From positions 1 to 64,000 of the forward strand of contig JAQVVM010000006.1 in assembly GCA_028698995.1 (NCBI GenBank): a stretch of 64,000 bases of DNA, in the 5' to 3' direction. The DNA comes from Bacteroidales bacterium (GTDB taxonomy: Bacteria; Bacteroidota; Bacteroidia; Bacteroidales; PXBB01). The translations under genes were made by a program, and so were the position numbers. Position 1 is the first letter of the stretch; each line of letters opens with the position of its first letter. The notes below the pieces were generated by a model. That model saw only the letters and a program-made list of their open reading frames with translations. It was not told where the DNA came from and did no database searches. This document shows, piece by piece, positions 1-31,323 of this stretch.

Positions 1-1720
1 ACCTGCATCAGGTATAACAGTTACATCCGGAGGACAAATGATGCTTGGGTTTTCATTGTCTTCTACAGTAACAGTTTGGTTGCAAGTGGCTGTATTTCCT
101 GCGCCATCAGTTACTGTCCATGTTACGATGGTAGTTCCGATGGGGAAAATTGAAGGTGCATTGTTTGTAATACTTACAATAGTGCAGTTGTCATCAACTG
201 ATGGTGTTCCCAAAGTTACATTGCTTGCTGAACAAACGTTGGCATCGGTTGATACGGTTATGTTTGCAGGGCAAATGATAGTTGGGTTTTCATTGTCTTC
301 TACGGTAACAGTTTGGTTGCAAGTGGCTGTATTACCTGCGCCATCAGTTACTGTCCATGTTACGATGGTAGTTCCGATGGGGAAAATTAAAGGTGCATTG
401 TTTGTAACACTTACAATAGTACAGTTGTCATAAACTGAAGGTGTTCCCAAAGTTACATTACTTGCTGAACAAATTCCTGCATCAGGTGTAACAGTTACAT
501 CCGGAGGACAAATGATGCTTGGGTTCTCATTGTCTTCTACGGTAACAGTTTGGTTGCAAGTGGCTGTATTTCCTGCGCCATCAGTTACTGTCCAGGTTAC
601 GATGGTAGTTCCGATGGGGAAAATTGAAGGTGCATTGTTGGTAATACTTACTATTGTGCAGTTGTCATCAACTGATGGTGTTCCCAAAATTACATTGCTT
701 GCTGAACAAATACCTGCATCAGGTATAACAGTTACATCCGGAGGACAAATGATGCTTGGGTTCTCATTGTCTTCTACGGTAACAGTTTGGTTGCAAGTGG
801 CTGTATTTCCTGCGCCATCAGTTACTGTCCATGTTACGATGGTAGTTCCGATGGGGAAAATTGAAGGTGCATTGTTGGTAATACTTACAATAGTACAGTT
901 GTCATTTACTGATGGGGTACCTAATGTAACATTTGTTGCACTGCATGATGCATTATCAGTATAAACAGTAACATTGGCAGGACAAATGATGCTTGGATTT
1001 ACATTATCAACAACAGTCACTATTTGAACACAACTGGCTGTATTGCCTGCTCCATCAGTAACTGTCCATTTAACAATGGTTGTTCCTATTGGGAAAATTG
1101 ACGGTGCATTATTAGAGATGTTCACAATAGAACAATTATCACTAACTGCAGGAGAACCTAGATTAACATTACTTGCTGAGCAAATATTTGCATCAGTTGA
1201 TATTGTTAAATTTGGAGGACAAATAATAGAAGGCAACTGATAATCTACAATTTTTACGGCTTGCTGACAGCTAGCAGTATTTCCTGCTCCATCTGTTACA
1301 ACCCAGGTTACAATAGTAACTCCTAGCGGAAAAACTGCAGGTGCGTTGTTAGTAACACTAATTATGGAGCAGTTATCATCAACTGAAGGTATCCCCAAAT
1401 TAACATTACTTGCTGAACACATATTTGGATCAGTATGAACAGTAACAATTGAAGGACAAGAAATTGTTGGATTCTCAATATCTACTACGGTGACTGTTTG
1501 ATTACAGCTGACAGAATGGCCAGAACCATCAGTAACAGTCCATGTAACAACAGTTGTTCCTATTGGGTATTGAGCAGGTGCATTATTAGAAATGCTTACG
1601 TTAATGCAGTTGTCGTTTACTATTGGCGTACCCAAAGCAACATTGCCTGCATAACAAACACCTGGATCTGTAGGGATTGTAATATTCGAAGGACAAATAA
1701 TTGTTGGATTTTCAATGTCA
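1..1720 (-). repeat. Tandem 237-bp HYR-domain repeats
   Basis: The same landmark (CAAATGAT or a close variant, encoding the IxCP motif on the minus strand) recurs at 35, 272, 509, 746, 983, 1220, 1457 and 1694. This is an exact 237-bp (79-codon) period over eight marks. Copies between 1 and about 960 are nearly identical; copies beyond 1000 are more diverged. The array continues past the left edge. Confidence 0.9.
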
Positions 1721-3783
1721 ATCACAGTTACTGTTACCACTGCATCATCGCAATTTGTAGGATTAAGGATCTCACAAATCTGGTATGTTAAGGTATAAAT
1801 ACCTGGTTGAGTACCAGCAGTAAGGCTTACAAAACCGTTTGGATTTAGCATCAGATTAGAGAAAGGATCAGGAACTGTTACAGAGATAATAACTTCTGAA
1901 AGGTTTGCTGTTTGACCATCAAAAATATCATTGTCAAGAACATTCAATATATTATATTGTCCTGAACAGCCATTTATATCTGCTAAGTTATCATCTTCTG
2001 CAATAATTTCAGTAAAAACATTTATAATAATTTCATTATCAGTATCACTAACGGGATTATCATTAGGATCGTTTCCCGTAGCCGTTACAATATTTGGAAT
2101 TTCTGACAGATACATATCAGAAGGTGTAATTGTATAAGTTTCAATAAATGTTTGTGATGCACCTGGTGCAAGGCTGGGAATTGTATTATTTAAGCCTGTC
2201 AGAGGATCAATCACCAAAACATCTGTAAGCGTAACGTTTCCTGTATTACTTACTACAATAGTATAAGTTATAACATTTCCAATTGCATTGTAAGTTGTTG
2301 GGTTTGCAATTTTAGAAACATTAATACCCGGCTGTTGGGTTCCTATAACAATTTCTGAATCATCATAGGAATATTCAATTCCATTAGCCCACCCATAAGT
2401 TGATGCTGTATTTAGGATTTGTCCTGCATCCATATCTGATTGGGTGATGGTATAATTATAAGTAAAAGTATGACTTTGGCCAGGGTTTAAACTTATTGGA
2501 CCAAATGTAACGCCAAGAAGTGTATCTACAACTACAACATTAGTTAAGGGATAATTTCCAGTATTTTCAACTAAAAAAGTGTATGTAATTTGGTTACCTA
2601 CTGCACTAAAAGAATTTGGAACAGCCGTTTTATTAAGGAATATTTCGGGTATATATGCATCAACAGCCATTGCAATGCAATAAATGATGTACGTATCCTG
2701 AGTTGTTCCATACCTAAATGTTGTTGATGTTTGGTAATTTGTAATGACTGAATTACTAGGATTATTAATATTAAACATGCTGATATCCAAACCAAAATTA
2801 TTAAGATAAGAAGGGTTTCTTGGATTCTGAACACCATTAGTATAGCTGTATATGGAGCTGTTAAAGAAATTTGTTGTTGCATTCTCTGGATGAGAAAGGG
2901 ACACCCAATTTGTGTTGGCATGGTTACGAATTTGAAAATAGTCACCCGAAATTGATCTATCTCCTTCTCCGGCTAACATGCCAAGTTTCATATTAACAGG
3001 GCCTGTCTGTGTAGTAATAAGACCATTTACAGGGATTGTAAAATCAGCAGTAATACCTCCAGCCACATATGCATGTCCATCAAAAATTACAATATCGCGA
3101 AAGTTCATCAAGTGATTTTCATAAACAACTATCAATGCCCAACCACCGTAATAACCAGTACCATCTGTGTTGACATCTTCATTCAGAGCAATATTTGCAA
3201 CACTATACTGACCGGTACCACCTGAATTACCCTTAACATAATTGGTAACGTCGGCAAAAGCAGAAAACATGTTTCCATCTTGATTATCAGGATAATAAAT
3301 ATCAAAAGAATCAGCAACAATGTTTGTATATGAAGTTGCTCCCGGGCCTTTTAAAAGTACTTTACTTTTATTCAAAGTAACACCTGAAACAGTAAATTCC
3401 ATGGGACTCATTGTTCTATGAGACCTACCTGTCCAATAAAGACCGGCAAACTTTATTTCAGTCTGTGCAGGATTTGCATTGTTTTCAGTCGAAAACACAA
3501 GGTTGGCAGAGGAAGAATTAATAATACCTGAACCTCCATCCACATTAACATAAACCATATTTACATATCCATTATTTGAATTATCTGAGTAAGGCAATAC
3601 TGTAAGATTTTTATTACCTATCAGTGTAAAATCTCCCCTTATTCGTTGAACGGGGTAACGGGAACTGAAACTTTTAAGTAGCTGAGCATTTGCACCTAAA
3701 CTACTTATCAGCAAAAAAGCCAGTATTAATACATAAACACTGACTGATTTAATACACAAAGTTCTATTTGTAAATTTGTTCAT
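1..3783 (-). CDS. Giant HYR-repeat surface protein, N-terminal part (gene runs off the left edge)
   Basis: The reading frame is open from an ATG at 3783 down to base 1 (1,261 codons, no stop), so the C-terminus lies outside the window. The start is followed by a signal peptide ending near ANAQ. Next comes a roughly 330-residue region with GLYWTGR and GGWALIVVYE motifs, resembling the exported DUF3344-like module. Two DUF11-like domains follow (ENTGNYPLTNVVVVD and SNTGNVTLTDVLVID), then one linker domain and a run of HYR domains of 79 residues each (DNENPxIxCPxx ... VTWTVTDGxGxxxxCxQTVTV). HYR and DUF11 domains are extracellular beta-sandwich spacers of adhesins, so a T9SS-exported surface adhesin is likely. 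The C-terminal sorting domain is not visible. The gene sits 53 bp downstream of a small exported protein gene and probably shares its promoter. The family call is strong; the binding target is unknown. Confidence 0.85.
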   Translation of the reverse strand, partial: MNKFTNRTLCIKSVSVYVLILAFLLISSLGANAQLLKSFSSRYPVQRIRGDFTLIGNKNLTVLPYSDNSNNGYVNMVYVNVDGGSGIINSSSANLVFSTENNANPAQTEIKFAGLYWTGRSHRTMSPMEFTVSGVTLNKSKVLLKGPGATSYTNIVADSFDIYYPDNQDGNMFSAFADVTNYVKGNSGGTGQYSVANIALNEDVNTDGTGYYGGWALIVVYENHLMNFRDIVIFDGHAYVAGGITADFTIPVNGLITTQTGPVNMKLGMLAGEGDRSISGDYFQIRNHANTNWVSLSHPENATTNFFNSSIYSYTNGVQNPRNPSYLNNFGLDISMFNINNPSNSVITNYQTSTTFRYGTTQDTYIIYCIAMAVDAYIPEIFLNKTAVPNSFSAVGNQITYTFLVENTGNYPLTNVVVVDTLLGVTFGPISLNPGQSHTFTYNYTITQSDMDAGQILNTASTYGWANGIEYSYDDSEIVIGTQQPGINVSKIANPTTYNAIGNVITYTIVVSNTGNVTLTDVLVIDPLTGLNNTIPSLAPGASQTFIETYTITPSDMYLSEIPNIVTATGNDPNDNPVSDTDNEIIINVFTEIIAEDDNLADINGCSGQYNILNVLDNDIFDGQTANLSEVIISVTVPDPFSNLMLNPNGFVSLTAGTQPGIYTLTYQICEILNPTNCDDAVVTVTVIDIENPTIICPSNITIPTDPGVCYAGNVALGTPIVNDNCINVSISNNAPAQYPIGTTVVTWTVTDGSGHSVSCNQTVTVVDIENPTISCPSIVTVHTDPNMCSASNVNLGIPSVDDNCSIISVTNNAPAVFPLGVTIVTWVVTDGAGNTASCQQAVKIVDYQLPSIICPPNLTISTDANICSASNVNLGSPAVSDNCSIVNISNNAPSIFPIGTTIVKWTVTDGAGNTASCVQIVTVVDNVNPSIICPANVTVYTDNASCSATNVTLGTPSVNDNCTIVSITNNAPSIFPIGTTIVTWTVTDGAGNTATCNQTVTVEDNENPSIICPPDVTVIPDAGICSASNVILGTPSVDDNCTIVSITNNAPSIFPIGTTIVTWTVTDGAGNTATCNQTVTVEDNENPSIICPPDVTVTPDAGICSASNVTLGTPSVYDNCTIVSVTNNAPLIFPIGTTIVTWTVTDGAGNTATCNQTVTVEDNENPTIICPANITVSTDANVCSASNVTLGTPSVDDNCTIVSITNNAPSIFPIGTTIVTWTVTDGAGNTATCNQTVTVEDNENPSIICPPDVTVIPDAG

Positions 3784-3788
3784 GTTAA

Positions 3789-3810
3789 TTTAATTAAAAA
3801 ATTAATTAAA
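3789..3810 (-). other. A+T-only inverted repeat just before the giant gene's start codon
   Basis: TTTAATTAA (3789-3797) and TTAATTAAA (3802-3810) form a perfect 9-bp inverted repeat with a 4-base loop. It ends 5 bases before the ATG at 3783 in the mRNA. It is made only of A and T, so the stem is weak. It could affect translation initiation or be chance in A+T-rich leader DNA. Confidence 0.3.
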
Positions 3811-3836
3811 GAAAATTCTTTGCATTTTCTAAAACA

Positions 3837-4349
3837 CTATTGTATGATTTCGAACCTGTAAATTACATTAATATTTTGAGGTTGTTCATTGTTTAAAAGT
3901 TGATTAACAATAGGGACTAAACAAGAGGAACTCATATCTTGGCAAACATCGTATTGAAAAAATATTAAAAGATAATCTAATGAGGAAAAACTTTGCATTA
4001 GAGTTGGACTAAATGTATTTGCGAGATCTGAATTATTCCTGATATCAATTCTTAAAAATTCGATTTCATTATATAAAGGGTTATTTTCATAAAGCCTGTT
4101 GACAGCATCAACTTCACAAACAGCAACTGTTGGATTATTACCACCCAAAAGTTGAATATTATTTTGTGTTACAAAAATTCTTGGGTGCAAATCTTCAACA
4201 AGACTCTGTAAATGTTCTGCTTCAGCCGAATCAAGAGAATTTAAAACTGAAGAATATTCCTGACTATAAGCAAATAATTCAATGTTAAATAGAACTACTA
4301 AAATGATTAAACGGTTTAATTTTCTAAGAAGTGTAGCGTTTTTATTCAT
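3837..4349 (-). CDS. Small exported protein of unknown function, first gene of the HYR adhesin operon
   Basis: This 170-residue protein has a clear signal peptide (hydrophobic LIILVVLFNIELFAYSQ, cleavage after AYSQ). I do not recognise a family. The mature part has alternating hydrophobic strands (EIEFLRIDIRN, LDYLLIFFQYDV) and three or four Cys. The stop is TAG. It lies 53 bp upstream of the giant HYR gene on the same strand, and a sigma-54-like promoter with two palindromes lies upstream. An analogous small exported protein (43539-43991) precedes the other giant HYR gene in the window. That position suggests a helper or partner for the large surface protein, which is inference. The start is chosen for the signal peptide. 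Confidence 0.75.
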   Translation of the reverse strand: MNKNATLLRKLNRLIILVVLFNIELFAYSQEYSSVLNSLDSAEAEHLQSLVEDLHPRIFVTQNNIQLLGGNNPTVAVCEVDAVNRLYENNPLYNEIEFLRIDIRNNSDLANTFSPTLMQSFSSLDYLLIFFQYDVCQDMSSSCLVPIVNQLLNNEQPQNINVIYRFEIIQ

Positions 4350-4448
4350 AGTATTTTTCTTGAAATTATTAAAAGGTCTGAAATTGATAGTTTATATAAA
4401 AATTATTAATATTAATAGATTTTATAAAAGAATAAAACCAAAAAAGCC

Positions 4449-4464
4449 AGCAAAAATCACACCA
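4449..4464 (-). promoter_or_regulatory. Candidate sigma-54 promoter for the HYR adhesin operon
   Basis: On the minus strand the sequence is TGGTGTGATTTTTGCT. The invariant GG and GC doublets are 10 bases apart, and the -12 half (TTTGCT) fits the sigma-54 consensus. The start point would be near 4438, leaving a leader of about 90 nt before the ATG at 4349. Two palindromes lie 75-95 bp upstream of the -12 element, as expected for binding sites of an NtrC-type activator, and such an activator is encoded at 5667-7013. Confidence 0.55.
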
Positions 4465-4517
4465 TGTATGTATTTAACTGACTTATTAGTATTTACAAAA
4501 AATTATAAGCAAGAATA

Positions 4518-4553
4518 TTCCAAATTATGGAAAATAAATTCCAAATTTCGGAA
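4518..4553 (-). promoter_or_regulatory. Pair of palindromic upstream activator sites, 21 bp apart
   Basis: TTCCAAATTATGGAA (4518-4532) and TTCCAAATTTCGGAA (4539-4553) share the pattern TTCC(A)-N5-(T)GGAA, and their starts are 21 bp apart, two helical turns. They are centred about 75 and 96 bp upstream of the -12 GC of the candidate sigma-54 promoter. A third copy lies at 5218-5232. I infer binding by the adjacent NtrC-family protein. Confidence 0.55.
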
Positions 4554-4700
4554 TCATTTGATTTAAAATTCTATTAAATTCTTAAATTAAGTTATGAAAA
4601 GAATTCAATAAATTTTTGTTTAATATTTGCTGACAAAACAGCATCTAATTCATTATCAATTTCTTAAATTAAAATTAGAAATATGGATTTATTTCTTAGA

Positions 4701-5105
4701 TCAGCAAGCTGTTGTGTAAGCAGTGAGTACTTTTCTAATTTTTTCTATATCTTTATTACCTTTCATGATATACTCAACAGCGCCACTTTTAATCGAATCG
4801 GCTGCTATATAAATATTATCATGACCTGATAAAATGGCAATTATGATATTTGGATACTTATCTTTTACAATTTTTATAAATTCAAGTCCATTCATTTCTT
4901 CCATTTCATAATCACAAAAGATAATATCCGGTTGTTCCTCTTCTATTGTATTGATGCATTCCTGACCATTTGAAAAGGTTTTCACATAACTGCATCCAAT
5001 CTTCTTTACATGATGTTTATAAAATGTCAGTGAAAAATAATCATCATCAACAAGGAATATTTTATAAGCTTTAGATTTATCGTAATTAAAAAGATTTTCA
5101 AACAT
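4701..5105 (-). CDS. Stand-alone response-regulator receiver protein
   Basis: This 134-residue protein is essentially one REC domain. The acidic triad VDDD is at residues 19-22, the phospho-acceptor Asp65 lies in CDYEMEEMNG, the conserved Ser is in LSGHD, and the Lys is in MKG. There is no output domain, as in CheY or Spo0F-type relay proteins. It lies downstream of the HPt and NtrC-type genes on the same strand, so a phosphorelay intermediate is likely. It has its own candidate sigma-54 promoter and a palindromic activator site, which suggests that the relay feeds back on this gene. The partner kinase is not in the window. Confidence 0.88.
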   Translation of the reverse strand: MFENLFNYDKSKAYKIFLVDDDYFSLTFYKHHVKKIGCSYVKTFSNGQECINTIEEEQPDIIFCDYEMEEMNGLEFIKIVKDKYPNIIIAILSGHDNIYIAADSIKSGAVEYIMKGNKDIEKIRKVLTAYTTAC

Positions 5106-5147
5106 ATTAATACTTTTAAAATTTAAAAATTAGTTTGAAAACACCAT

Positions 5148-5163
5148 ATCAAATAACGAACCA
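5148..5163 (-). promoter_or_regulatory. Candidate sigma-54 promoter for the receiver gene (degenerate -12)
   Basis: The minus-strand sequence TGGTTCGTTATTTGAT has GG, the inner C and G, and TTG in register, but the -12 doublet is GA instead of GC. The predicted start is near 5137, about 30 nt before the ATG at 5105. The palindrome at 5218-5232 is centred 75 bp upstream of the -12 element, within 1 bp of the spacing at the adhesin operon. Confidence 0.42.
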
Positions 5164-5217
5164 AAATTTATACTTTATTGAATTTCAGTTAATTAGGAAA
5201 TACTTTGGGGGGAATTA

Positions 5218-5232
5218 TTCCAAAATGTGGAA
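5218..5232 (-). promoter_or_regulatory. Palindromic upstream activator site (third copy)
   Basis: TTCCAAAATGTGGAA is a TTCCA-N5-TGGAA palindrome matching the pair at 4518-4553. It lies between the HPt stop and the receiver start, at the same distance from a sigma-54-like promoter as the proximal site of the pair. Confidence 0.5.
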
Positions 5233-5240
5233 AATGATTT

Positions 5241-5600
5241 TTAAGGATGAAGTTCTTTTAATTCCTGAATAACTTTTGAGATGGTTATATCAATTTTTGT
5301 GATAGCGCATTTAATATCATAATCAGTTAGTTTTTCTTTATCTAAAAGACTAAGAGCTTTAATTTCATTGGAGATTGTGTTGATTTTGAGGCTATAAATA
5401 CTTAGCTTAATGCGATGAGCCACTCTTCTTATCGTTTCATAATCTTTTTTAGCATAGGACAACTTTATTTCTTCTAATGCATCAGGAGTATGTTTAACAA
5501 AAATATCAATCAATGATATTAGAAATTCATTGTCGCCATTGGAAAGATGTTTAATATAAGTTAAATCACAAAGTTCCATTTTAGGATAATAAGAATACAC
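5241..5600 (-). CDS. Histidine phosphotransfer (HPt) domain protein
   Basis: This 119-residue, mostly helical protein has the HPt signature around His62 (VAHRIKLS, compare the usual AHxLKGxS). The first helix region contains FLISLIDIFVKHTPDAL, typical of HPt four-helix bundles. HPt proteins carry a phosphoryl group between receiver domains in multi-step phosphorelays. It is 66 bp downstream of the NtrC-family regulator and upstream of the stand-alone receiver on the same strand, so the three genes plausibly form one relay. No hybrid kinase is encoded nearby. The Gly normally after the Lys is Leu, a mild deviation. Confidence 0.8.
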   Translation of the reverse strand: MYSYYPKMELCDLTYIKHLSNGDNEFLISLIDIFVKHTPDALEEIKLSYAKKDYETIRRVAHRIKLSIYSLKINTISNEIKALSLLDKEKLTDYDIKCAITKIDITISKVIQELKELHP

Positions 5601-5666
5601 ATTTAAACTAAATTCAATTAGTTTGGTTTCAAAATTAATAAAAAAAAACTAATAATAATAAAAAAA

Positions 5667-7013
5667 TTATTTTTTTATTTCACCGTTTTTTAAAAGGTTG
5701 TAAATTGTTGATTTTCCAATGTCAAGTTTATTTGCAACAGAAATGACATCAAAATTATATCTGTTCAGAAATCTTCTGATAATTTCAGTGTTGTATTCTT
5801 TAATTGTTCTTTCATTTTCCCAAAAATCATCTGAATTACCCGTAGAGGAAAAGGTTATATCGGAGGCTGTTATTAAAAAATCTGTACACATTACACAAGC
5901 CAAATCTACAATGGCTTTTAGTTCACGTACATTACCCGGGTATGCATGTTGCATCAATTTGTCTTTTGCATCAGTCGAGAAGGTAAAGTTCTGCAGGCTA
6001 TTTTCTTTTGAGAAAACTTCTGTAAAATGTTTTGCAAGTACAAGTATATCATTGTCTCTATCCCTTAAAGGTGGCATAACAATAGGAAGACCAATGACTC
6101 TGTAATATAAATCTTCTCTGAATCTCTTTTCCTGAACTTCGTTCATTAAATTTTTATGTGTGGCAGTAATTAACCTAAAATTCAGTTTAATTGCTTTAGT
6201 ACCTCCTACCCTATAGATTTCTTTTTCTTGTAGCGCTCTTAGAATTTTACTTTGCAAATTCAAGTCCAATTCTGCAATTTCATCTAAAAAAAGGGTTCCA
6301 CAATGAGCTCTTTCGAATTTTCCAATATTGGTAGTAACTGCACCTGTAAAGGCACCCTTTTCATGGCCAAAAAGTTCACTTTCCATCAATTCGGATGGAA
6401 TAGCTGCCATATCAACAGCAACAAAAGGGCTGTTTTTTGATGAGCTGCTATAATGGATGGCTTTAGCAACCAGTTCTTTACCCGTTCCTGTTTCTCCAGT
6501 AATAGACACATTTATACTTGTTTTAATAGCCTTTTCAATCAGAGTAAAAGTTTTTCTAATGGCTGCACTTCGACCAATAATATTTTTCTCAAAGTCGTAT
6601 TTGATATTGATTTGTTCTTTAAGCTCTTCAATTTCCTTTATTAATTCTATTTTCTCTTGAATTTTAAGAATTGAATTCCATAACAATTCTTTGGTATTAT
6701 TTCCTTTTTCAATATAATCATCGGCTCCGGATTTTAACAATTCAACAGCTACTGCAATTTCCTCTTGACCACTGATAATAATAACATGAGTATATGGGTT
6801 TATATCTTTAATCTTCTTCATTAATACATCACCTCTCATGTCAGGCAAACCAAAATCAACAGACACAATATGAGGTTTCTTATACATGTTGTTTAAGCAA
6901 TCGCGTCCGTTCTTAAACAAACTAACATCAAACTCTTTATTGAGTGAAAGGTAATGTTTTAACAATTCTCCATAGAATGGATCATCCTCAACAATAAATG
7001 TTCTTAATCCCAT
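5667..7013 (-). CDS. NtrC-family sigma-54-dependent response regulator
   Basis: Domains in order over 448 residues: an N-terminal REC domain (EDD at 9-11, phospho-acceptor Asp53 in VDFGLPD, Lys in IEKG), a short linker helix, and an AAA+ sigma-54 interaction domain. The AAA+ domain has Walker A GETGTGKE, the sigma-54 contact loop GAFTGA, Walker [10 protein letters not shown] and the arginine-finger region [11 protein letters not shown] Fis-type helix-turn-helix closes the protein ([16 protein letters not shown]). The intact GAFTGA loop means it should activate RNA polymerase carrying sigma-54. It heads the minus-strand relay cluster and is divergent from the transporter gene at 7127. Likely targets are the sigma-54-like promoters at 4449 and 5148. 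Confidence 0.95.
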
Positions 7014-7126: not shown

Positions 7127-10100
7127 ATGAATAAAATAAAAAAACTAAGAACTTTCGGTGGTGTTTTTGTGCCATCACTACTGACAATTCTTGGTGTTAT
7201 CTTGTATATGCGTTTGCCATGGATTGTCGGAAATGCCGGTTTATATGCTACTTTAGGGATTATTCTGGTTGCACATATTATTTCCGTTACAACAGGATTG
7301 AGTATTTCATCCATAGCTACTGATAAGAAAGTTGAGACCGGAGGAACTTATTTTATGATATCTCGCAGCTTAGGGCTACCTATTGGTGGCACCTTAGGGC
7401 TTGCGTTATTTGTTGGCCTATCTTTCAGTACCAGCCTTTATCTCATAGGATTCTCAGAGGCGTTTCTAAGCTTTTTCGGCATGGATAATTCTCTTAACTC
7501 TATACGCTTGACAGGATTAATTGTACTCAGCACAGTTACACTAATTACTTTTATAAGTACTAAGCTGGCAATTAAAACACAATACCTGATATTAACAGCA
7601 ATGATTTTGTCTCTCTTATCTATTTTCTTTGGCAACCATGACTTAAAACCATCACCTGCATTTTTGCAGAACCCAGTTCAAACAATACCTTGGATAGTTC
7701 TATTTGGCATCTTTTTCCCTGCTGTAACTGGTTTTGAGGCAGGAGTATCAATGTCAGGGGATTTAGAGAACCCAAAAAAATCTATCCCACGTGGGACGAT
7801 AATGAGTATTTTCTTAGGTTTGATAGTATATATCGGAATAAGCATTTTCTTATCCTTGACGGTATCTTCCGAACAATTGCGTAATAACCCCAATGTATTG
7901 TTTGATATTTCATTAATTAAGCAGTTGGTTATTACCGGTGTTTTTGGGGCTACACTTTCTTCTGCTTTAGGCAGCATATTGGCTGCTCCAAGAATTTTAC
8001 AGGCAATTTCCATAGATAAAATCACTCCCAAATTCTTTGCAAAGGGGTACGGAGACATGAATGAACCACGTCATGCACTTCTTTTTACTTTTCTTATTGC
8101 ATTATCTGGGATAATGATTGGAGAACTTAATGTTATAGCACGTATTGTAACTATTTTCTTTATTATCACCTATGGATTTCTAAATCTTAGCTGCTTTATT
8201 GAGAATTGGTCAAGTTCCGATTTTCGTCCAACCTTTAGAATCCATCCTATTATCAGTATTATTGGATTTGTTGCATGTTTCGTTGTCATGATTCAACTTG
8301 ATTTTCTGGCCATGATAATAGCCTCAGCAGTTCTTATTTCAATGTTCTTTTATTTAAAACGGAAAGAACTTGTTTTAAGCAGTGGTGATGCATGGGATGG
8401 TGTATGGGCATCATTAGTCAAATCGGGTTTATCATATTTAAAAAGGAGCCCAATAAATACTCGAAATTGGAGGCCCAACATAATCCTCTTCAGCGGTGGA
8501 AATAAATCTCGTCCCTATCTTATTGAAATTGGATCAAATTTGATAGGGAAGCAGGGGTTGCTTACTGATTTTGAACTCATTGAGGATTCAAAAAAAAATG
8601 AAGACAGTGGCAGAATACAAAATGCCGAAGATCAATCATATAAGGATTTGTCAGCACATATTTTCAGAAAGCAATACCACTGCAGCAATATTTACAAAGG
8701 CATTGAAAGCATTACACAACTTTATGGTTTCTCAGGTGTAGAGCCAAACACAGTTCTTTTGGGTTTTCCAAATGATGAAAGTAAAATTGATGAATTTATC
8801 AACATTTGCAAGATATTTGAAAAAAATAATTATAACAATATCTTTATTAAATACAATAAAGAGAAATATTTTGGACAAAAGAAAAACATCGATATTTGGT
8901 GGGATGGAGAAAGCAACAACTTAGTTTTTGCGATTATTCTACTTAGATTTTTAACTTCAGGGTTTACATGGCGACATGCTAAATGCAGACTCAACCTTGT
9001 AAACAATTTTAACATTCCCGAAGAAGACATTTTAAAAAAGGTTAAAAACATACTTAATTCTTTTCGTTTTGACTTAGAAATTAAGGTTCATAACAACGCT
9101 GTTGAGGATAAACCTATTTTTGATCTTATGACTAAAGAATCAATATCAGCAGATCTTATAGTTTATGAAGTACCGGCAGCAAATTCAAATAATATTTCTA
9201 AAGCATTAAAGGATCTACAAAAACAAACTTCAGAACTACCTACAATGATGCTACTTAAAGCCTCAGATGTTTTTGAAAGTGGCAGTATATTCAGAAAAAA
9301 ATTGAAAATTGATGCAAAAAATTACGATCTTATAAATGAAAGTATTACCAAAGCAGAATGTATTGATTTTCCACTAACTGAGGATGATGAACTCAACAAA
9401 CATATAATCATTGCTAAAGAACAAATAGAAATTATTCTCAATAATTTTTACAAAGATTTTTTTGTAAAAATTCATGAGCGCAATGTATTTATAAGCAATG
9501 AGTTACAAAAAATTATTGACAATGCATTTAAAAACATCAATAAAAATATTTTAATACAGGATAACAATCTTAGAAAAGATGATTATTATCGGATTTGGGA
9601 GGACATGTTAATAAGAATAAAGGAACTTTCAAACGAGATTATCGAATCATATCTGCAATTAGACAAAATGCTTACAGATAAGGCTCTTAAAGTTTTACTT
9701 GACGAACTTGACAATTTTAATAGAAAAATACCTAAATATACTTATCTGACCTTCAACAAAAATCAATATGCAAGTTTAAAGAATGACTCCATCCGAACAA
9801 AAACCTATAAGTTTTTTAAAAGAATGCAATGTCATTTGAATGCGGGCAAGAAAACAGAGCGCATACGTTTCAGAGATAGTATTCAGCACAATCTTCAGCA
9901 AAAGTTGCTTTCACATATCAACATATTGTTAGTAAGATATCAGGATAACAGCTATTTTTCCGTACTTGAACTTCGAAAAATTATTGAGCAGCTTAAAAAT
10001 CTATTTTACAAAATTGAAGTTGACATTCACAATGGAGTTGCTGATAATTTAGTATATACTTCTTACAAAAATGAAATTGCACAAAGCATCCTTGAAAATG

Positions 10101-12268
10101 ATAAAAATTTGGAATTGGGTATCATTTTTTTTAAAAGAAGTATTTTTTCAGCTTTACGCAGGGAAATGAAAGATTTAACAGAAGCCATGGGCCAGATTCA
10201 TTTCAGGAAATACTTCCAAAAAAACAAAGCCCGTTCAAAACATGAGACCATACTGCTTTTCCATCTGAACACATTTGCGGATGTATGGTTTCATAATACA
10301 ACAAGTCATGCTCGACAATTGTATGTTGAGATTTTAGTACAGTTGCTGACAGTGCGGTTAAAGTCGAAAATCTTTAACCCTTACAACCAATTTTTAAACA
10401 CCATCAATAAACAAAACGGAGATAAATTGTTACAAATAAAAAGAAAGATAAAATTTTATATTGATGAAATTATTGCCAGAGATTCATTAGAATACGATCT
10501 TGACGCCATAATGTTTAATGAAATTCAGCTTATTGATCTTTTTGAGGATTTATTCGAGAGCCTTAAGCCACTCACTAATGATTTTAACGGTGATTTTTTC
10601 ATAGCAAAACCTAAATTTGATGACACTTTAAAAAGCAAATATATTAAAGCAATTCAAACATTCGAACTGCCTTTAAGGAAGCAAATTGATTATGTTGTAG
10701 ATGGGCAATTCTATGAAAATATAATTCAACTTTTAAGTGCATTAAATATTGAGCTTAATCAGAAATTGTCGAAATGGAACAACTTGCTTAATTTGTCGAG
10801 ATACAATTTAGAAAATGTTTATATCAGTGATCATAAAGAATCGGATGAACGCACCAATAAAATACTTTTTCTAAATGAACTCCAAAAAAATTTACAAAAA
10901 GAGGTCAATAGTTTTGAGGAATTGACAAATAACTTCTGTCCTAATTTGAGCAAAACACTTAAAGATACATTTGACCCTATCACTATAAATTATTTGTATA
11001 ATGAATCATTATCAAAGAAAAGCTCACTCAGAAAAATGGGGAAGGTTCAATTTCGCAGGATATTACCTTTAAAATGGGCAGGTAATCTTATTCGCAAGCT
11101 CATGGAGGTGCTATTGTATGGCAGAAGTAAAGGAATTATTCTTGCTCAAAATATGAAATCAGATTATAAGGAGCATAAATCAGCCATATATAGACTTTTA
11201 AATTTTGCAGAAAACAATAGCCCAAATAATAAGGTAATGGATAAACTACCTTTTTATTATAAAAATCTGTTTAATAATAAATTCTCAGTTAATCAGCTAC
11301 TATGGGTAGGTCGTAAGCATGAACTTGAAAAAGCTCAGAAAGCCGTTATGCAATTCAGAAATGGAAGCAAGGGTGCTATTATGGTTCTAGGAGAACGAAA
11401 TTCCGGAAAAACATCCCTGTCAAATTTCATTGCACAAAATCACTTTAACAGGGAAAATATCTTTCATCTTTATCCACTCAGAGAAGGTTCGGCAGAGGTC
11501 AATGATTTTGAAAAAGCACTATCAAAAGCTACAGGTCAAATTGGAAATGCTCATGAAATAATGCAGCAAATACCAAAAGATGCAGTAATAATAATAAACG
11601 ATATGGCTCTTTGGTGGGAGCGCTCTATTAATGGTATGGTGGTTATTAAACTCATCATGGATTTGATATTTGAATTTGGTCATAAGTGTTTATTTATCAT
11701 CAACTCAAATGACACATCATATACATTTATGAATAAGCTGTTATATATGAATAATCATTTTTTAGTGGTCATTAAATGTAAACACTTCACAACCCATGAA
11801 ATTCGCGACCTTATACTAAAACGCCACCAGTCAAGTGAACTTAGATTAAAGTACGGTAAACTCCCCGAATCCTTAATGATAGAATGGCGTTATGCCCACC
11901 TTTTTAATCATTACTTCAACTATTCTGACGGCATTATTGGAACAGCCCTTAATGGGTGGTTAACTAATATTTCAAGTGTTAATGATAAAGAGATTATAAT
12001 TCAAAAGCCAAAATTACCTGATTTAAAAGCTTTTGAAATGTTGCCTGATGAAGCTCTTAACGTACTGATACAATTGGTTTTACATAGAAGACTAAACAAG
12101 AAAAGACTTTTAAAAATATTATTTATAAGTGAACATTCAATGGATGAAATATTAAATTTTTTAATTTCAACTAAGCTGATAATCCGATTGCTAAATGACA
12201 TATATATGTTAAACGCTTTTGTAGAGCCCCATTTTGTAAAATACCTAAAGAATAAGGAGGTAATATAA
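7127..12268 (+). CDS. SLC12-type cation-chloride cotransporter fused to a P-loop ATPase domain
   Basis: This protein has 1,713 residues. Residues about 1-420 form an APC-superfamily transporter with about 12 membrane segments and SLC12 hallmarks: LGVILYMRLPWIVG near the N-terminus and FFPAVTGFEAGVSMSGDLEN in the core. Residues about 440-760 match the cytosolic C-terminal domain of SLC12 proteins (WRPNIILFSGG, PNTVLLGFP, IDIWWDGESNN). About 600 residues of mostly helical sequence follow, then an ATPase module with Walker A GERNSGKT near residue 1421 and a Walker B-like VIIINDMALWW near 1485. SLC12 proteins move chloride with Na+ or K+. A fused ATPase is not part of the usual SLC12 layout. Its stop overlaps the start of an MscS-like channel gene, so a role in ion or volume control is inferred. 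The region near 7105 may be a sigma-54 promoter. Confidence 0.88.
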   Translation: MNKIKKLRTFGGVFVPSLLTILGVILYMRLPWIVGNAGLYATLGIILVAHIISVTTGLSISSIATDKKVETGGTYFMISRSLGLPIGGTLGLALFVGLSFSTSLYLIGFSEAFLSFFGMDNSLNSIRLTGLIVLSTVTLITFISTKLAIKTQYLILTAMILSLLSIFFGNHDLKPSPAFLQNPVQTIPWIVLFGIFFPAVTGFEAGVSMSGDLENPKKSIPRGTIMSIFLGLIVYIGISIFLSLTVSSEQLRNNPNVLFDISLIKQLVITGVFGATLSSALGSILAAPRILQAISIDKITPKFFAKGYGDMNEPRHALLFTFLIALSGIMIGELNVIARIVTIFFIITYGFLNLSCFIENWSSSDFRPTFRIHPIISIIGFVACFVVMIQLDFLAMIIASAVLISMFFYLKRKELVLSSGDAWDGVWASLVKSGLSYLKRSPINTRNWRPNIILFSGGNKSRPYLIEIGSNLIGKQGLLTDFELIEDSKKNEDSGRIQNAEDQSYKDLSAHIFRKQYHCSNIYKGIESITQLYGFSGVEPNTVLLGFPNDESKIDEFINICKIFEKNNYNNIFIKYNKEKYFGQKKNIDIWWDGESNNLVFAIILLRFLTSGFTWRHAKCRLNLVNNFNIPEEDILKKVKNILNSFRFDLEIKVHNNAVEDKPIFDLMTKESISADLIVYEVPAANSNNISKALKDLQKQTSELPTMMLLKASDVFESGSIFRKKLKIDAKNYDLINESITKAECIDFPLTEDDELNKHIIIAKEQIEIILNNFYKDFFVKIHERNVFISNELQKIIDNAFKNINKNILIQDNNLRKDDYYRIWEDMLIRIKELSNEIIESYLQLDKMLTDKALKVLLDELDNFNRKIPKYTYLTFNKNQYASLKNDSIRTKTYKFFKRMQCHLNAGKKTERIRFRDSIQHNLQQKLLSHINILLVRYQDNSYFSVLELRKIIEQLKNLFYKIEVDIHNGVADNLVYTSYKNEIAQSILENDKNLELGIIFFKRSIFSALRREMKDLTEAMGQIHFRKYFQKNKARSKHETILLFHLNTFADVWFHNTTSHARQLYVEILVQLLTVRLKSKIFNPYNQFLNTINKQNGDKLLQIKRKIKFYIDEIIARDSLEYDLDAIMFNEIQLIDLFEDLFESLKPLTNDFNGDFFIAKPKFDDTLKSKYIKAIQTFELPLRKQIDYVVDGQFYENIIQLLSALNIELNQKLSKWNNLLNLSRYNLENVYISDHKESDERTNKILFLNELQKNLQKEVNSFEELTNNFCPNLSKTLKDTFDPITINYLYNESLSKKSSLRKMGKVQFRRILPLKWAGNLIRKLMEVLLYGRSKGIILAQNMKSDYKEHKSAIYRLLNFAENNSPNNKVMDKLPFYYKNLFNNKFSVNQLLWVGRKHELEKAQKAVMQFRNGSKGAIMVLGERNSGKTSLSNFIAQNHFNRENIFHLYPLREGSAEVNDFEKALSKATGQIGNAHEIMQQIPKDAVIIINDMALWWERSINGMVVIKLIMDLIFEFGHKCLFIINSNDTSYTFMNKLLYMNNHFLVVIKCKHFTTHEIRDLILKRHQSSELRLKYGKLPESLMIEWRYAHLFNHYFNYSDGIIGTALNGWLTNISSVNDKEIIIQKPKLPDLKAFEMLPDEALNVLIQLVLHRRLNKKRLLKILFISEHSMDEILNFLISTKLIIRLLNDIYMLNAFVEPHFVKYLKNKEVI
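12253..12260 (+). promoter_or_regulatory. Strong Shine-Dalgarno site for the MscS-like gene
   Basis: TAAGGAGG lies 7 bases before the ATG at 12268, inside the end of the transporter gene. Such a strong match is uncommon in this window and fixes the start of the overlapping gene. Confidence 0.7.
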
Positions 12269-17252: not shown

Positions 17253-20200
17253 CTATTTAACCACTAATTTTTTGATTATTAATTTGTTGTTATTACGCAT
17301 TTGCAGAAAATAAACACCAGGTGTGGCATAACCCAGAACAATTCCTACAGCTTCATGGGTAAAGAGATTGGCTATACTTTTGTTATAAACCATTTCACCA
17401 AGATTGTTGAAAACAGTTAAACTGACATCATTCAATGCAATACCGTCCCATACAACTTCAAATTGGCCGTTACTTGGGTTAGGAAATATCGAAAGATTTT
17501 CAACAACCTGAATCTCAGTATCACCTACCCAAATATAGTTAATAGTATCAGAAACCGCTGTACATCCGTAGATATCAGTATAAACAACAAAGTAATGCCC
17601 GTTTAGTGATGGTGTATAACTTTGATTAACAGCTCCTGAAATTAAATTACCTTCATAATACCATTGGTTGCCGCTTGAATAGCTGGATGTCAACGTAGAT
17701 GCCAATACACTAATTGTTGGTGAAACAGGGTTATGTACAGTAATTGATAATGTTTGAGCAGAAGATTGTCCACAAATATTACTTGCTTTAACAGTGATTA
17801 TACCGCTACTTGCATTTGTAGTCACATCAATTGAGTTGGTTGTTGAAGTGCCTGTCCATCCTGAGGGTAATGTCCATATATAAGAAGTTGCTCCACTGAC
17901 AAGTGCAACGGTATAAGTATTCAAGGTATTGGCACACGCATTAATGTCTCCGGAAATAGCGCCTGGTGTTGAAGGAACAGTATTAGCATTAACAATTAAA
18001 TCTTGCGCTTGTGATGACCCACAGTCATTATGAGCAACCACACTGATGGTACCATTGTTTGAGCCTACAACTACATCAATAGAGTATGTAGTTGAAGTCC
18101 CAGTCCATCCAATAGGTAAAGTCCAAGTATAATATGTAGCTCCTGAAACAGGTTGAACATAAAATGTTTCAGTACTTCCAAAACAAACAGAAACTGATCC
18201 ATTTATAGCACCTGGTTGATCAGGAACACTACTACCATTGGGTGCAATAAGAAGTGAAGAAGCAGAACCCTGTCCACAAGTATTGGTGGCATAAACCTGA
18301 ATATTTCCGGGATTTACTCCTGTTAAGACCTGAATACTGTTGGTATTAGAAGCTCCTGTAAAGCCTGAAGGTAAAGTCCAAGTGTATGACATTGCACCCT
18401 GAATAGGATCTATACTGTAAACTTCATTAATTCCTGAACAGGGTGTGTTATTGCCGGTTATAATACCAGCAGCAGCGGGGATATTATTAACATTTATATT
18501 TAGAGATTGAGGAGTTGAGTTACCACAACTATTACCTGCTGAAACTGTAATAATACCACCAATGGCATTTGCAGTTGTTATTATACTTGTTGTTGTTGAA
18601 GTACCCGACCAGCCTCCTGGCAAATTCCATGTATATGAAGTTGCACCGTTAACAGGAATTACTGAATAGGTATTGTTTGTACCTTCACAAATTGCAGTGC
18701 TACCAGTAATGCTCATAGGTGAATTTGGAACAACTGTCACATTCACAGCCAGAGTTTGAATTAAAGAAGCACCGCATGAATTGTTAGCTGTAACAGTAAT
18801 ATTTCCACTAACAGTTCCGGAAGTTACATTGATGGTGTTTGTTAATGAAGAGCCGGTAAAACCAGATGGCAGCAGCCATGTGTAAGATGTGGCATTGTTA
18901 ACAGGTGTTATGCTATAAGTTTGTAAAGATCCGGCACAAATGGTGTTATTGCCACTGATTGTAGTGGGTTGTGACGGTATAGGATTAACGGTTGTGTTAA
19001 GAATTGAAGTCTGAGACAATCCGCAATCATTTCCAGCTGCTACTGTAATGTTACCACTGGCTTGTCCTGGAATAACATTAATTATATTTGTTGAAGAGGT
19101 ACCCGTCCATCCTGAAGGTGTACTCCAAATGTAATAAGAAGCACCATTAACTGGTGATACGCTATAAGTATTGGAAACTCCTTCACAAATAACAGCATTG
19201 CCAGTGATATTACCGGGTGTCGTTGGCAGGGCGTTTACTGTAATTGTTTTGGTTTGTGCACCAGATGAACCACAGCTGTTATTGGCTGTAACCATAATGT
19301 TTCCGCCTGAGGTACTAGTATTTGTGTTAATACTTGTTGTGTTAGACGTACCCGACCAGCCTGAGGGTAAAGTCCATGTGTAGGAAGTTGCACCATTGAC
19401 AGATGCTATGCTATATGTTTGAGCCGTGGAGGAGCAAACAACAGCACTTCCCGTTATGGATGTAGGCATAGCCGGAACATTGTTAACGCTTACATTTATA
19501 CTGGACACTGATGAAGATCCACATGCGTTATTTGATTTTACAGTGATTGTTCCACCATTAGCTCCTGCTGTTGCATTAATGCTTATACCGGTGGAAGTTC
19601 CTACCCAACCTGATGGTAAAGTCCATGTGTAGGATGTTGCATTGTTTACGGCTGAAATTGAATAAGTCTGATTAGTTCCTGAACAAACAGCAAGACTGCC
19701 AGATATTGCTCCGGGTTGTACAGAAAGAGGATTAACAGTAACAGTCAGTGATTGAGAAGTGGACGATCCACAGGAATTTCCTGCTGTTACAGAAATTGTC
19801 CCTCCTATTGAGCCACCAGTAGCATTGATAGAACTTGAGGTAGAAGTTCCTGTCCATCCAGAAGGTAATGTCCAAGTATAGAATGTAGCACCGCTTACAG
19901 GTGTTACAGAATAGGTGTTTTGAACGCCCTGACAAATAGCAGTATTACCTGTAATAGTACCTGGTGTTGCAGGAATAGTACTTACCGTTACAGCCAAGGT
20001 CTGAGCTGTTGAAGAGCCACATGAATTTTCGGCCACAACAGTGATGTTGCCACCAATTGAATTAGATGAAGCAGTAATACTGTTTGAGGTTTGAATCATA
20101 GACCAACCTAAAGGTGTTGTCCATAAATAGGATGTAGCTCCGTTAACCGGAGTAATTGAATAGGTATTTTGAGAATTTTCACAGATACTGGTATTACCTG

Positions 20201-23200
20201 TAATAGTACCGGGTGTTACGGGTGTACTGTTCACTGTAACAGCCAAAGTCTGTATGGCTGATGAACCGCAAGTATTGTTAGCTTTAACAGTAATATTACC
20301 GGAAGAAGTACCAGCAGTTACGTTAATACTATTTGTTGTTGATGTACCCGACCAACCAGAAGGTAATGTCCATGTATATGATGTGGCATTGGCAACAGAT
20401 GTTACACTGTAATTCTGTGCTGTTCCGGAACATACAGATGTGTTGCCACTAATAGTTCCTGGTTGTGCAGGGACAGGACTTACAGTTACATTTAGTGAAG
20501 CAGCCTGAGACGTGCCACAGGTATTAGAAGCAGTTACTGTAATATTGCCACTGTTAGAGCTTGGTGTCACATTAATAGTATTTGTTGTGGAAGTTCCAGT
20601 CCATCCTGAAGGCATTGACCATGTGTAAGATGTGGCACCGCTCACTGCAGTTACACTGTAAGTACCTTGAACACCTTCGCAACTTGTGGTGCTGCCACTT
20701 ATAATACCGGGAGTAGCAGGTATTGTCTGAACAGTTACAGCTTTTGTTTGCGAACCGGAGGTGCCGCAAAGGTTTGAAGCTGTTACCGTTATATTTCCAC
20801 CTGTACTGTTGGATGTGGTATTGATTGTTTCGTTTGTTGAGCTTCCCGACCAGCCAGAAGGCAATGTCCATGTATAAGATGTGGCTCCGCTCACAGGAAT
20901 GATGCTGAAAGTGTTTTGTGTTCCCGAACATATAGGCGAGTTTCCTGATATGATACCAGGAGTTGCGGGTACAGTTGAAGATGTTACGGCAAGGTTTGTA
21001 ACTGATGAAGAACCGCAGGCATTATTAGCCTTAACAGTAATATTACCGTTGTTTGTGCCTGTTGTAACGTTGATACTATTGGTTGCTGATGTACCTGTCC
21101 AACCGTTAGGCAGCGTCCATGTGTATGAGGTGGCATAATTAACTGCATCTGTTTCGTAAAGTTGCGTAGTTCCAGCACAAACAAAAATACTTCCTGATAT
21201 GGCAGTAGGTTGAACCGGAAGCGGGTTAACATTCACATTAAGTGTTTGGACTCCTGATGTATCGCAGGAATTGGCTGCGGCAACAGTAATGGAACCACTT
21301 GAAGCACCGGCTGTCACATTAATGGAACTTGATGTTGAGGTCCCTGTCCAGCCGTTAGGTAGTGTCCATAGATATTCTGTTGCCCCGTTAACGGGTGTAA
21401 CCGAATAAGTCAGTTGTTGACCTTCGCATGTTGTTGTGCTTCCTGTAATAGATCCCGGCATAGCAGGTGCTGTTGCTATAGAGTATGTGAGCACATTTGA
21501 ATTTGCAAGGCCAGGTGTAGCACAGGCTTTGCTCGTAAACATCTGTACACTAACCTGAGCACCATTGTATAGCGCAGAGGTGGTATATGTATTGGAGGTG
21601 GCTCCGGGTATAGGACTGCTATCTAATAACCATTGATAGGTTGGTGTTGTACCGCCATTTACGGGTGTAGCTGTAAAGGTTACAGTGCCGCCATCACAAA
21701 CCGGACTAACAGGGTTACCAACAATGCTTACACTTGCTGTTGTAGGACTGTAAACTTGCATAGAGATGCTATTGGATGTTGCTGTAGAAGGAGAAGCACA
21801 AGAAGCAACAGAAGTTAAAACAACCGTAATGACATCACCGGATACCAGAACTGAAGAGCTGTAAGTTGAACTTGTTGCTCCGGAAATGTCGCTGCCGTTT
21901 TTCTTCCATTGGTATGTTGGAGCAGAACCACCGTTTAGAGGCGTTGCCGTAAATTGAGCTAGGGTGCCACTACATAAAGTGTCGTTAGGACTTACAGTTA
22001 CTGTTACAGAAGGAGTTACACTACTTGAAACAGACATCAATACAGCATCGGAAGTATCTTTTGTTTGTTGTAAACAGGCGTAGTTTGAAGTTAAAATCAC
22101 ATCATAATAATCACCGTCGCTTATTGATGCAGTGGCATAAGTAGTTGCATTAGCACCTGAAATATTTAAGCCGTTTTTGCGCCACTGGTATTGCGGAGTT
22201 GTTCCTCCGTACTGTGGTGTAGCTGTAAAGGTTACACTTTGACCGAGGCAAATGGGGTTGTTGTCAGCTACAATATTAACCTCAGGTACAACATTCTGAT
22301 TAACGTTCATGATTATGGCGTTTGATATTACTATAGCAGGGGAAACACATGTCAGAGAAGACGTCATATAACATCGTACCGTATCATTATTGTTTAAAGA
22401 ACTACTTGAATAAGAGCTTGCTGTGCCCACGCTTACTCCATTGACTGTCCATTCATAAACAGGGGTTGTACCACCATTTGTCGGGTTCGATGTGAAAGTA
22501 ACCTGAGTTCCGTTGCAAATAGCACCGTTAGGTGAAGCAGCAATGGATATTGATGCTACAAAGTTATTTGAAACTGACATAGTAATGCTGTTTGAGGTAA
22601 CACTTACAGGCGAAGCGCATGGTGCATTAGAAACAAGCACACAAGAATATATTTCACCATTAACAATACTATTTGTAGTATAAGTAGCCGCATTTGCGCC
22701 ACTGATGTTGGATCCATTTTTTCTCCACTGATAGGTGGGGTTGCTGCCACCACCGCTGATATTAGCTTCAAAAACAACACTTTGTCCAGAACAGACTGAT
22801 GAACTTGCAGTTGATATAACGATAGTTGGGACAGTTACAGGTGTTACATTCAATACCAATTTATTTGATGATACAAGAGGTGATGTTATGCATGAGAGTC
22901 CAGATGTCATAAGCACCCAAACGCTATCGTTAGCATTCCAACCTGAAGCAGAATACACAGGGCTGTTGGTGCCAACAGCTACATTGTTTTTCACCCATTG
23001 ATATTGAGGCGTACCACCATTTACTGGAGTTGCGGTAAAAGTAACACTGGTATTACCACAGATAGAACCTGTAGGTGTTTGAGATATGCTTACAGAGGGT
23101 GTTAGGGGTGATGTTACCGTAACGGTAAGTGTACGTGGGGTTGAGGCTCCGCACACATTGTTTGCTACCACTTGAACATCGCCATTTTGGCCGGAAGCTA

Positions 23201-31121: not shown

Positions 31122-31323
31122 AATCGGTATTTTATTTAAAAAAGAATAAACTAATTTGAGTATTGACAATTTTTCAGGAAGGATGTTAGAAATTCAATAA
31201 TGTCAATAATTACAGTATTAAGAATTGGCTAAAAAATCAAGAAAAATCATTAATGCTTGCAAAAATAAAAAACCTTTAACAAATCATAACTTTTTTTTTG
31301 TTAAACACAAGATGAAAATGGAC

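Follow-up and report, generated by a model that had tools for sequence, protein, structure and literature searches.

Is the giant repeat protein encoded at the edge of this genomic stretch of Bacteroidales bacterium, 64,000 nucleotides long and hereafter called the window, expressed under the control of sigma-54, and which protein would serve as the activator? The genes concerned occupy positions 1-7013 of the minus strand in the order response regulator (RR), Hpt-like protein, receiver-only protein, exported protein and giant protein, and the putative regulatory site is located between the receiver-only gene and the exported-protein gene. On the reading that we prefer, to which we assign a probability of roughly 0.77, the region 4449-4553 is an enhancer-dependent sigma-54 promoter of the exported and HYR genes, at whose dyads the RR encoded at 5667-7013 would act, driving in addition a giant HYR gene on contig 9. 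The giant adhesins of this organism are thus probably switched on by one dedicated signalling circuit. The evidence that can be read from sequence comprises the elements and their rarity, the repeated geometry, the genes including rpoN, and the covariation of the dyads with the recognition helix of the RR in related bacteria.

Elements and genes of the locus

The sigma-54 element TGGTGTGATTTTTGCT (4449-4464, minus strand), located ~100 nt ahead of the exported-protein start codon, is an exact match to TGGYNYR-N4-TTGCW, with GG-N10-GC at -24/-12; its -24 part reads TGGTGT, as compared with the classical TGGCAC. Two dyads of 15 bp each, spaced by 21 bp, are the predicted activator sites. The proximal dyad TTCCAAATTATGGAA (4518-4532) has the form TTCCA-N5-TGGAA and lies 53 nt upstream of the -24 TGG, and the distal dyad TTCCAAATTTCGGAA (4539-4553) has one mismatch and lies 74 nt upstream of the -24/-12 element. 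A preliminary description of the locus had reported these elements at exactly these positions, and its distances of 75 and 96 bp between the dyad centres (4525 and 4546) and the -12 GC are reproduced here. A third, perfect dyad TTCCAAAATGTGGAA (5218-5232), absent from that description, is found 113 bp upstream of the receiver-only gene, followed 54 nt downstream by a putative, degenerate sigma-54-like element TGGTTCGTTATTTGAT (5148-5163, minus strand) with GA rather than GC at -12.

The first gene of the putatively controlled operon encodes a small exported protein (3837-4349, minus strand) with an N-terminal signal peptide in its sequence; it matched no known family, and its homologs occur in three of 99 genomes of the same order, this one included. 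The next gene encodes the giant HYR-repeat surface protein (1-3783, minus strand), of which 1261 aa are seen before the frame runs off the contig, leaving the C-terminus, where any T9SS sorting domain would lie, beyond the contig edge. Such sorting domains are present elsewhere in the genome, namely CHU_C at 34973-40291 and Por_Secre_tail on contig 9. The former belongs to a second HYR protein of the window (34973-40291, minus strand, 1772 aa), in which CHU_C is the type IX secretion signal, and a further open frame of 4638 aa spans 17253-31169 on the same strand; neither of the two showed a perfect dyad nearby. Divergent from the RR gene is the gene of a 1713-aa protein (7127-12268, plus strand) that combines an AA_permease/SLC12-like amino-acid-permease transporter part with a very long C-terminal part weakly matching the AAA_16 ATPase.

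Rarity of the elements and a second predicted promoter on contig 9

The preliminary description presupposed a sigma-54 gene, and the genome (4.47 Mb in 119 contigs, 98% complete) indeed carries rpoN on contig 28 (PF04552, E 2.2e-53). Loose dyads with up to two mismatches are not enriched in the window (51 observed vs 47.6 expected), and loose matches to the sigma-54 element are likewise no more frequent than chance would give. The perfect dyad TTCCA-N5-TGGAA is present in 11 copies in 4.47 Mb, eight of them inside genes, and the three intergenic copies are those at 4518, at 5218 and on contig 9; the palindrome is therefore not common at random positions, its exact copies elsewhere being mostly coding. 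The strict sigma-54 pattern has 23 matches in the genome vs two for the mirrored pattern. Of these 23, 21 fall within genes, which leaves two intergenic matches: the window promoter, crossed only by an implausible antisense ORF of 94 aa, and a site on contig 9.

Both intergenic matches carry dyads at an equal distance within 1 bp: 53 and 74 nt in the window, 52 (a half-site) and 73 nt on contig 9. The exact sequence TTTGGAA-N14-TTTGGAA occurs in the genome only at these two sites, and the composite pattern TTCC-N7-GGAA-N45-75-TGG-N8-TTGC gives two genome matches vs none for its mirrored version. With 0.004 such coincidences of a sigma-54 element and a dyad expected, two were observed (P(>=2) ~8e-6). 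A genome scan for dyads near GG-N10-GC thus recovers the same combination, with the same geometry, at a second giant HYR gene. A dyad with a sigma-54-like match was also seen on contig 67, between genes of large surface proteins.

On contig 9, the gene after the promoter encodes an exported protein. Over its first 480 residues this protein bears no resemblance to the head of the giant protein in the window, after which it enters HYR repeats with ~83% DNA identity to those of the window. Giant HYR adhesin genes thus lie downstream of each of the two predicted sigma-54/dyad promoters detected in the genome. Each of these genes (on contig 9 and at position 1 of the window) ends at a contig edge inside near-identical repeats, as the repeats interrupt the assembly. 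The HYR repeats common to both downstream genes are what would speak for mere coincidence or shared ancestry, that is, for duplicated promoter regions without function. We regard this as highly improbable, since the likeness is limited to the dyads and the -24/-12 element, the two proteins have unrelated heads, and the promoters have spacers (52-53 nt) that resemble each other no more than shuffled sequences do. The unrelated spacers argue that the motif was kept, and not simply copied within one block.

The response regulator and its relatives in Bacteroidota

The candidate activator (5667-7013, minus strand) consists of a receiver domain (PF00072), an AAA+ domain (PF00158) with an intact GAFTGA loop, and a putative C-terminal DNA-binding region, which places it in the NtrC family; the loop is invariant in 14 aligned orthologs. 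The preliminary description was correct about the loop; its placement of the activator gene just upstream is to be read as two genes away. The C-terminal region contains the recognition helix GKSTIYN and is not matched by Pfam HTH_8, only a weak match to HTH_17 being obtained (E 0.009). In the AlphaFold model (mean pLDDT 82), the three C-terminal helices 404-418, 423-430 and 434-442, modelled at pLDDT ~70, are consistent with a divergent HTH of the Fis type. The RR family profile aligns to the NtrC1 construct 4l4u over nearly its whole length, the DNA-binding domain included, and the REC-AAA+ part of the model resembles NtrC4 and NtrC1 (Z 32.6 and 31.7).

The two genes that separate the RR gene from the promoter encode an Hpt-like phosphotransfer protein (5241-5600, minus strand; PF01627 E 5e-4, below the Pfam cut-off) and a receiver-only, CheY-like protein (4701-5105, minus strand; PF00072). 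No cognate histidine kinase was found beside the window genes. An Hpt-like gene lies directly 3' of the RR gene in many orthologous loci of the GKSTIYR class, and receiver-only genes or kinases are found near other RR orthologs, which suggests a phosphorelay. We infer the individual steps as follows. The receiver domain of the RR would be phosphorylated, probably via a relay with the Hpt-like and receiver-only proteins. Dimers of the RR would bind both dyads on one face of the DNA, as these are in the same helical phase owing to their spacing of 21 bp. The AAA+ ring formed by the phosphorylated RR would touch the sigma-54 polymerase at 4449-4464 and switch on the genes of the small exported protein and of the giant HYR protein, a presumed adhesin, and the same RR would activate the giant HYR gene on contig 9.

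Four sigma-54 activator proteins (PF00158) are encoded in the genome, of which that on contig 67 lacks an HTH and has GSFTSA as its loop, those on contig 60 (PAS-AAA-Fis) and contig 42 (AAA-Fis) have ordinary Fis HTHs (HTH_8), and the fourth is the window RR, encoded beside the dyads. With Fis-type HTHs and GAFTGA or GSFTGA loops, the contig 60 and contig 42 proteins could in principle bind the dyads of a genuine sigma-54 promoter. However, they are encoded elsewhere, their loci yielded no dyad/sigma-54 pair, the dyad class in relatives follows the recognition helix of the window RR family, and the dyads adjoin receiver-only genes linked to that family, so that we consider this assignment unlikely. 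The RR encoded at 5667-7013 is the most likely activator of the window promoter.

The covariation with the recognition helix emerged from 108 orthologs of the RR gathered from Bacteroidota (47-61% identity). In the 200 bp preceding the RR gene, the dyad TTCY-N7-RGAA is present for 29 of the 61 orthologs with GKS helices vs three of the 47 with other helices, and the corresponding Fisher P of 1.7e-6 is optimistic since the ortholog sequences share ancestry. It is found in 17 of 34 family labels. In the GKSTIYR orthologs the dyad precedes 26 of 40 RR genes, where first-order Markov resampling of these upstream sequences predicts 0.95, and it is rare in other helix classes; in the 200 bp downstream of the RR gene it is found in none of the 61 members of the GKS class. 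The four GKSTIYN orthologs, which share the exact helix of the window RR, have no dyad upstream of the RR gene, so for this subgroup the link to the dyad rests on a receiver-gene promoter of Pontibacter cellulosilyticus. The RR of this bacterium is the best relative (61% identical), and in its RR-kinase-receiver cluster TTCCATTTGTTGGAA stands 53 nt above TGGCACAGCCTTAGCT, before the receiver-only gene.

A dyad with a near-perfect sigma-54 element likewise precedes receiver-only genes in two other genomes, G315 (73 nt) and G160 (56 and 76 nt), and in G160 another such pair, with 67 nt between dyad and sigma-54 element, precedes the gene of a 351-aa protein that bears the T9SS sorting domain Por_Secre_tail. 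When 2.6 million positions of RR loci were scanned, counting both strands, six dyads were paired with near-perfect sigma-54 scores, as compared with 0, 0, 0 and 1 in four controls. In the relatives, this excess over the controls is absent at weaker sigma-54 scores. At 5148-5163 of the window, and often before the receiver-only genes that neighbour RR orthologs (loci L224, L213, L287 and L238), TGGCAY or TGGTTC is found with a dyad 54-76 nt upstream and with GA, TC or AT rather than GC at -12; such sites may be degenerate or atypical forms of the sigma-54 element.

The dyads near the RR gene itself are in relatives mostly not accompanied by a sigma-54 element, and in general no such element was found at a fixed distance from the dyads upstream of this gene. 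Autoregulation at this site is therefore probably not mediated by sigma-54, and the RR in relatives may also act there as an autoregulator independent of it. The many relatives whose RR gene has dyads at positions -55 to -112 and no good sigma-54 element would also fit a different view of the window, in which an unrelated repressor or activator binds the dyads, transcription starts from an ordinary sigma-A promoter and the GG-N10-GC is accidental. We rate this as slightly less probable even than activation from contigs 60 or 42: the sole two intergenic strict sigma-54 matches of the genome both carry dyads at a distance equal within 1 bp, and the spacing is repeated in Pontibacter, G315 and G160. 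Taken together, rpoN, the rarity of the elements, their recurrence on contig 9 and the comparison across Bacteroidota support in silico the proposal of the preliminary description that the dyads are activator sites of a sigma-54 promoter.

When exact TTCC-N7-GGAA plus sigma-54 was sought in 99 genomes of the same order, its matches were ~3x as numerous as those of the mirrored pattern; this pattern by itself was rejected as evidence because the inspected matches, from RR-bearing genomes, lie mostly inside genes. Relatives of the small-protein/giant operon in genomes G007 and G074 have no dyads. In G007 (L391 4061-8556) the homologous pair of a small exported and a giant protein, the latter with SprB, DUF11 and Ig_7 domains, is free of dyads, and its RR ortholog has another recognition helix, the nearest regulator in G007 being of the GKTTIYR class. 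Near the RR ortholog at L196 (genome G097), a receiver-only gene with an upstream dyad heads a gene run that by sequence is polysaccharide-export-like (a lipoprotein, a large chain-length-type protein and a flippase-like protein), with a 1547-aa exported protein across the RR. PorX is encoded within ~7 kb of RR orthologs at L051, L052 and L058 (and L240, L247, L250, L285), and PorW/SprE is also found at L052, a possible link to T9SS regulation.

These comparisons lead us to a broader and more tentative proposal, which we hold at somewhat less than even odds: a Bacteroidota-wide phosphorelay, composed of an NtrC-like regulator with a GKS helix and either Hpt plus receiver-only proteins or a hybrid kinase, would act through paired TTCC-N7-GGAA sites and sigma-54 promoters, by which it would control the expression of surface adhesins and of the relay's own receiver-only protein. 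Such a phosphorelay would be the Bacteroidota counterpart of PrsK/PrsR, and its regulator possibly the activator behind some of the sigma-54-controlled surface genes in this phylum.

Comparison with known sigma-54 systems

Giant T9SS-type adhesins function in attachment and gliding in Bacteroidota. In the literature searched, no sigma-54 activator of such adhesins has been identified, and the window locus supplies a candidate. It also provides a short motif with fixed spacing that can be used in other Bacteroidota genomes, and a candidate regulon of two adhesins.

The preliminary description regarded sigma-54 control of adhesins as a notable circuit; this is less surprising now, since a T9SS-adhesin case has already been published in the phylum (PMC9723704). 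In Flavobacterium psychrophilum, sigma-54 controls the T9SS adhesin operon remFG-sprCDBF, as shown by mutagenesis of the -24/-12 element, and SprB, which is secreted by T9SS, has a second promoter (PMC9723704). The study of this sigma-54 (SM4) regulon did not identify the activator or its binding site (PMC9723704). The two loci are alike in the sigma-54 control, predicted for the window, of a surface-adhesin operon, whereas that of the window offers in addition a candidate activator and a paired dyad. Sigma-54 control of the bacterial exterior is in itself an established theme (PMC3162934).

With the NtrC/NtrC1/ZraR family the window RR shares GAFTGA, the match to the 4l4u profile and, given its putative HTH, the REC-AAA+-HTH order; it differs in a C-terminal HTH region that Pfam HTH_8 does not recognize and in its own predicted motif TTCCA-N5-TGGAA. 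A further close parallel is the PrsK/PrsR/PEP-CTERM regulon of Proteobacteria, in which a predicted activator motif, a spacer of ~63 nt on average and a -24/-12 element precede genes of exported surface proteins (Haft 2006, PMC1569441), and to which Aquincola pepA also belongs, as a case of the PEP-CTERM/PrsK-PrsR-RpoN system (PMC9850573). PrsR (TIGR02915) is the best NCBIfam match of the window RR, at 358.9 bits vs a curated equivalog cut-off of 502.6, which points to a protein that would work like PrsR and is not to be filed as PrsR. The circuit type is thus already known, and the assignment of activator, motif and adhesin, together with its recurrence in Bacteroidota, appears not to have been described in the literature searched. 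The window locus and the PrsR system both join an NtrC-like response regulator to sigma-54 in the same layout of motif, spacer and promoter. They differ in: i) the phylum; ii) the partners, which are Hpt and receiver-only proteins in the window vs tandem PrsK in the PrsR system; and iii) the surface proteins concerned, which here are giant HYR proteins rather than PEP-CTERM proteins.
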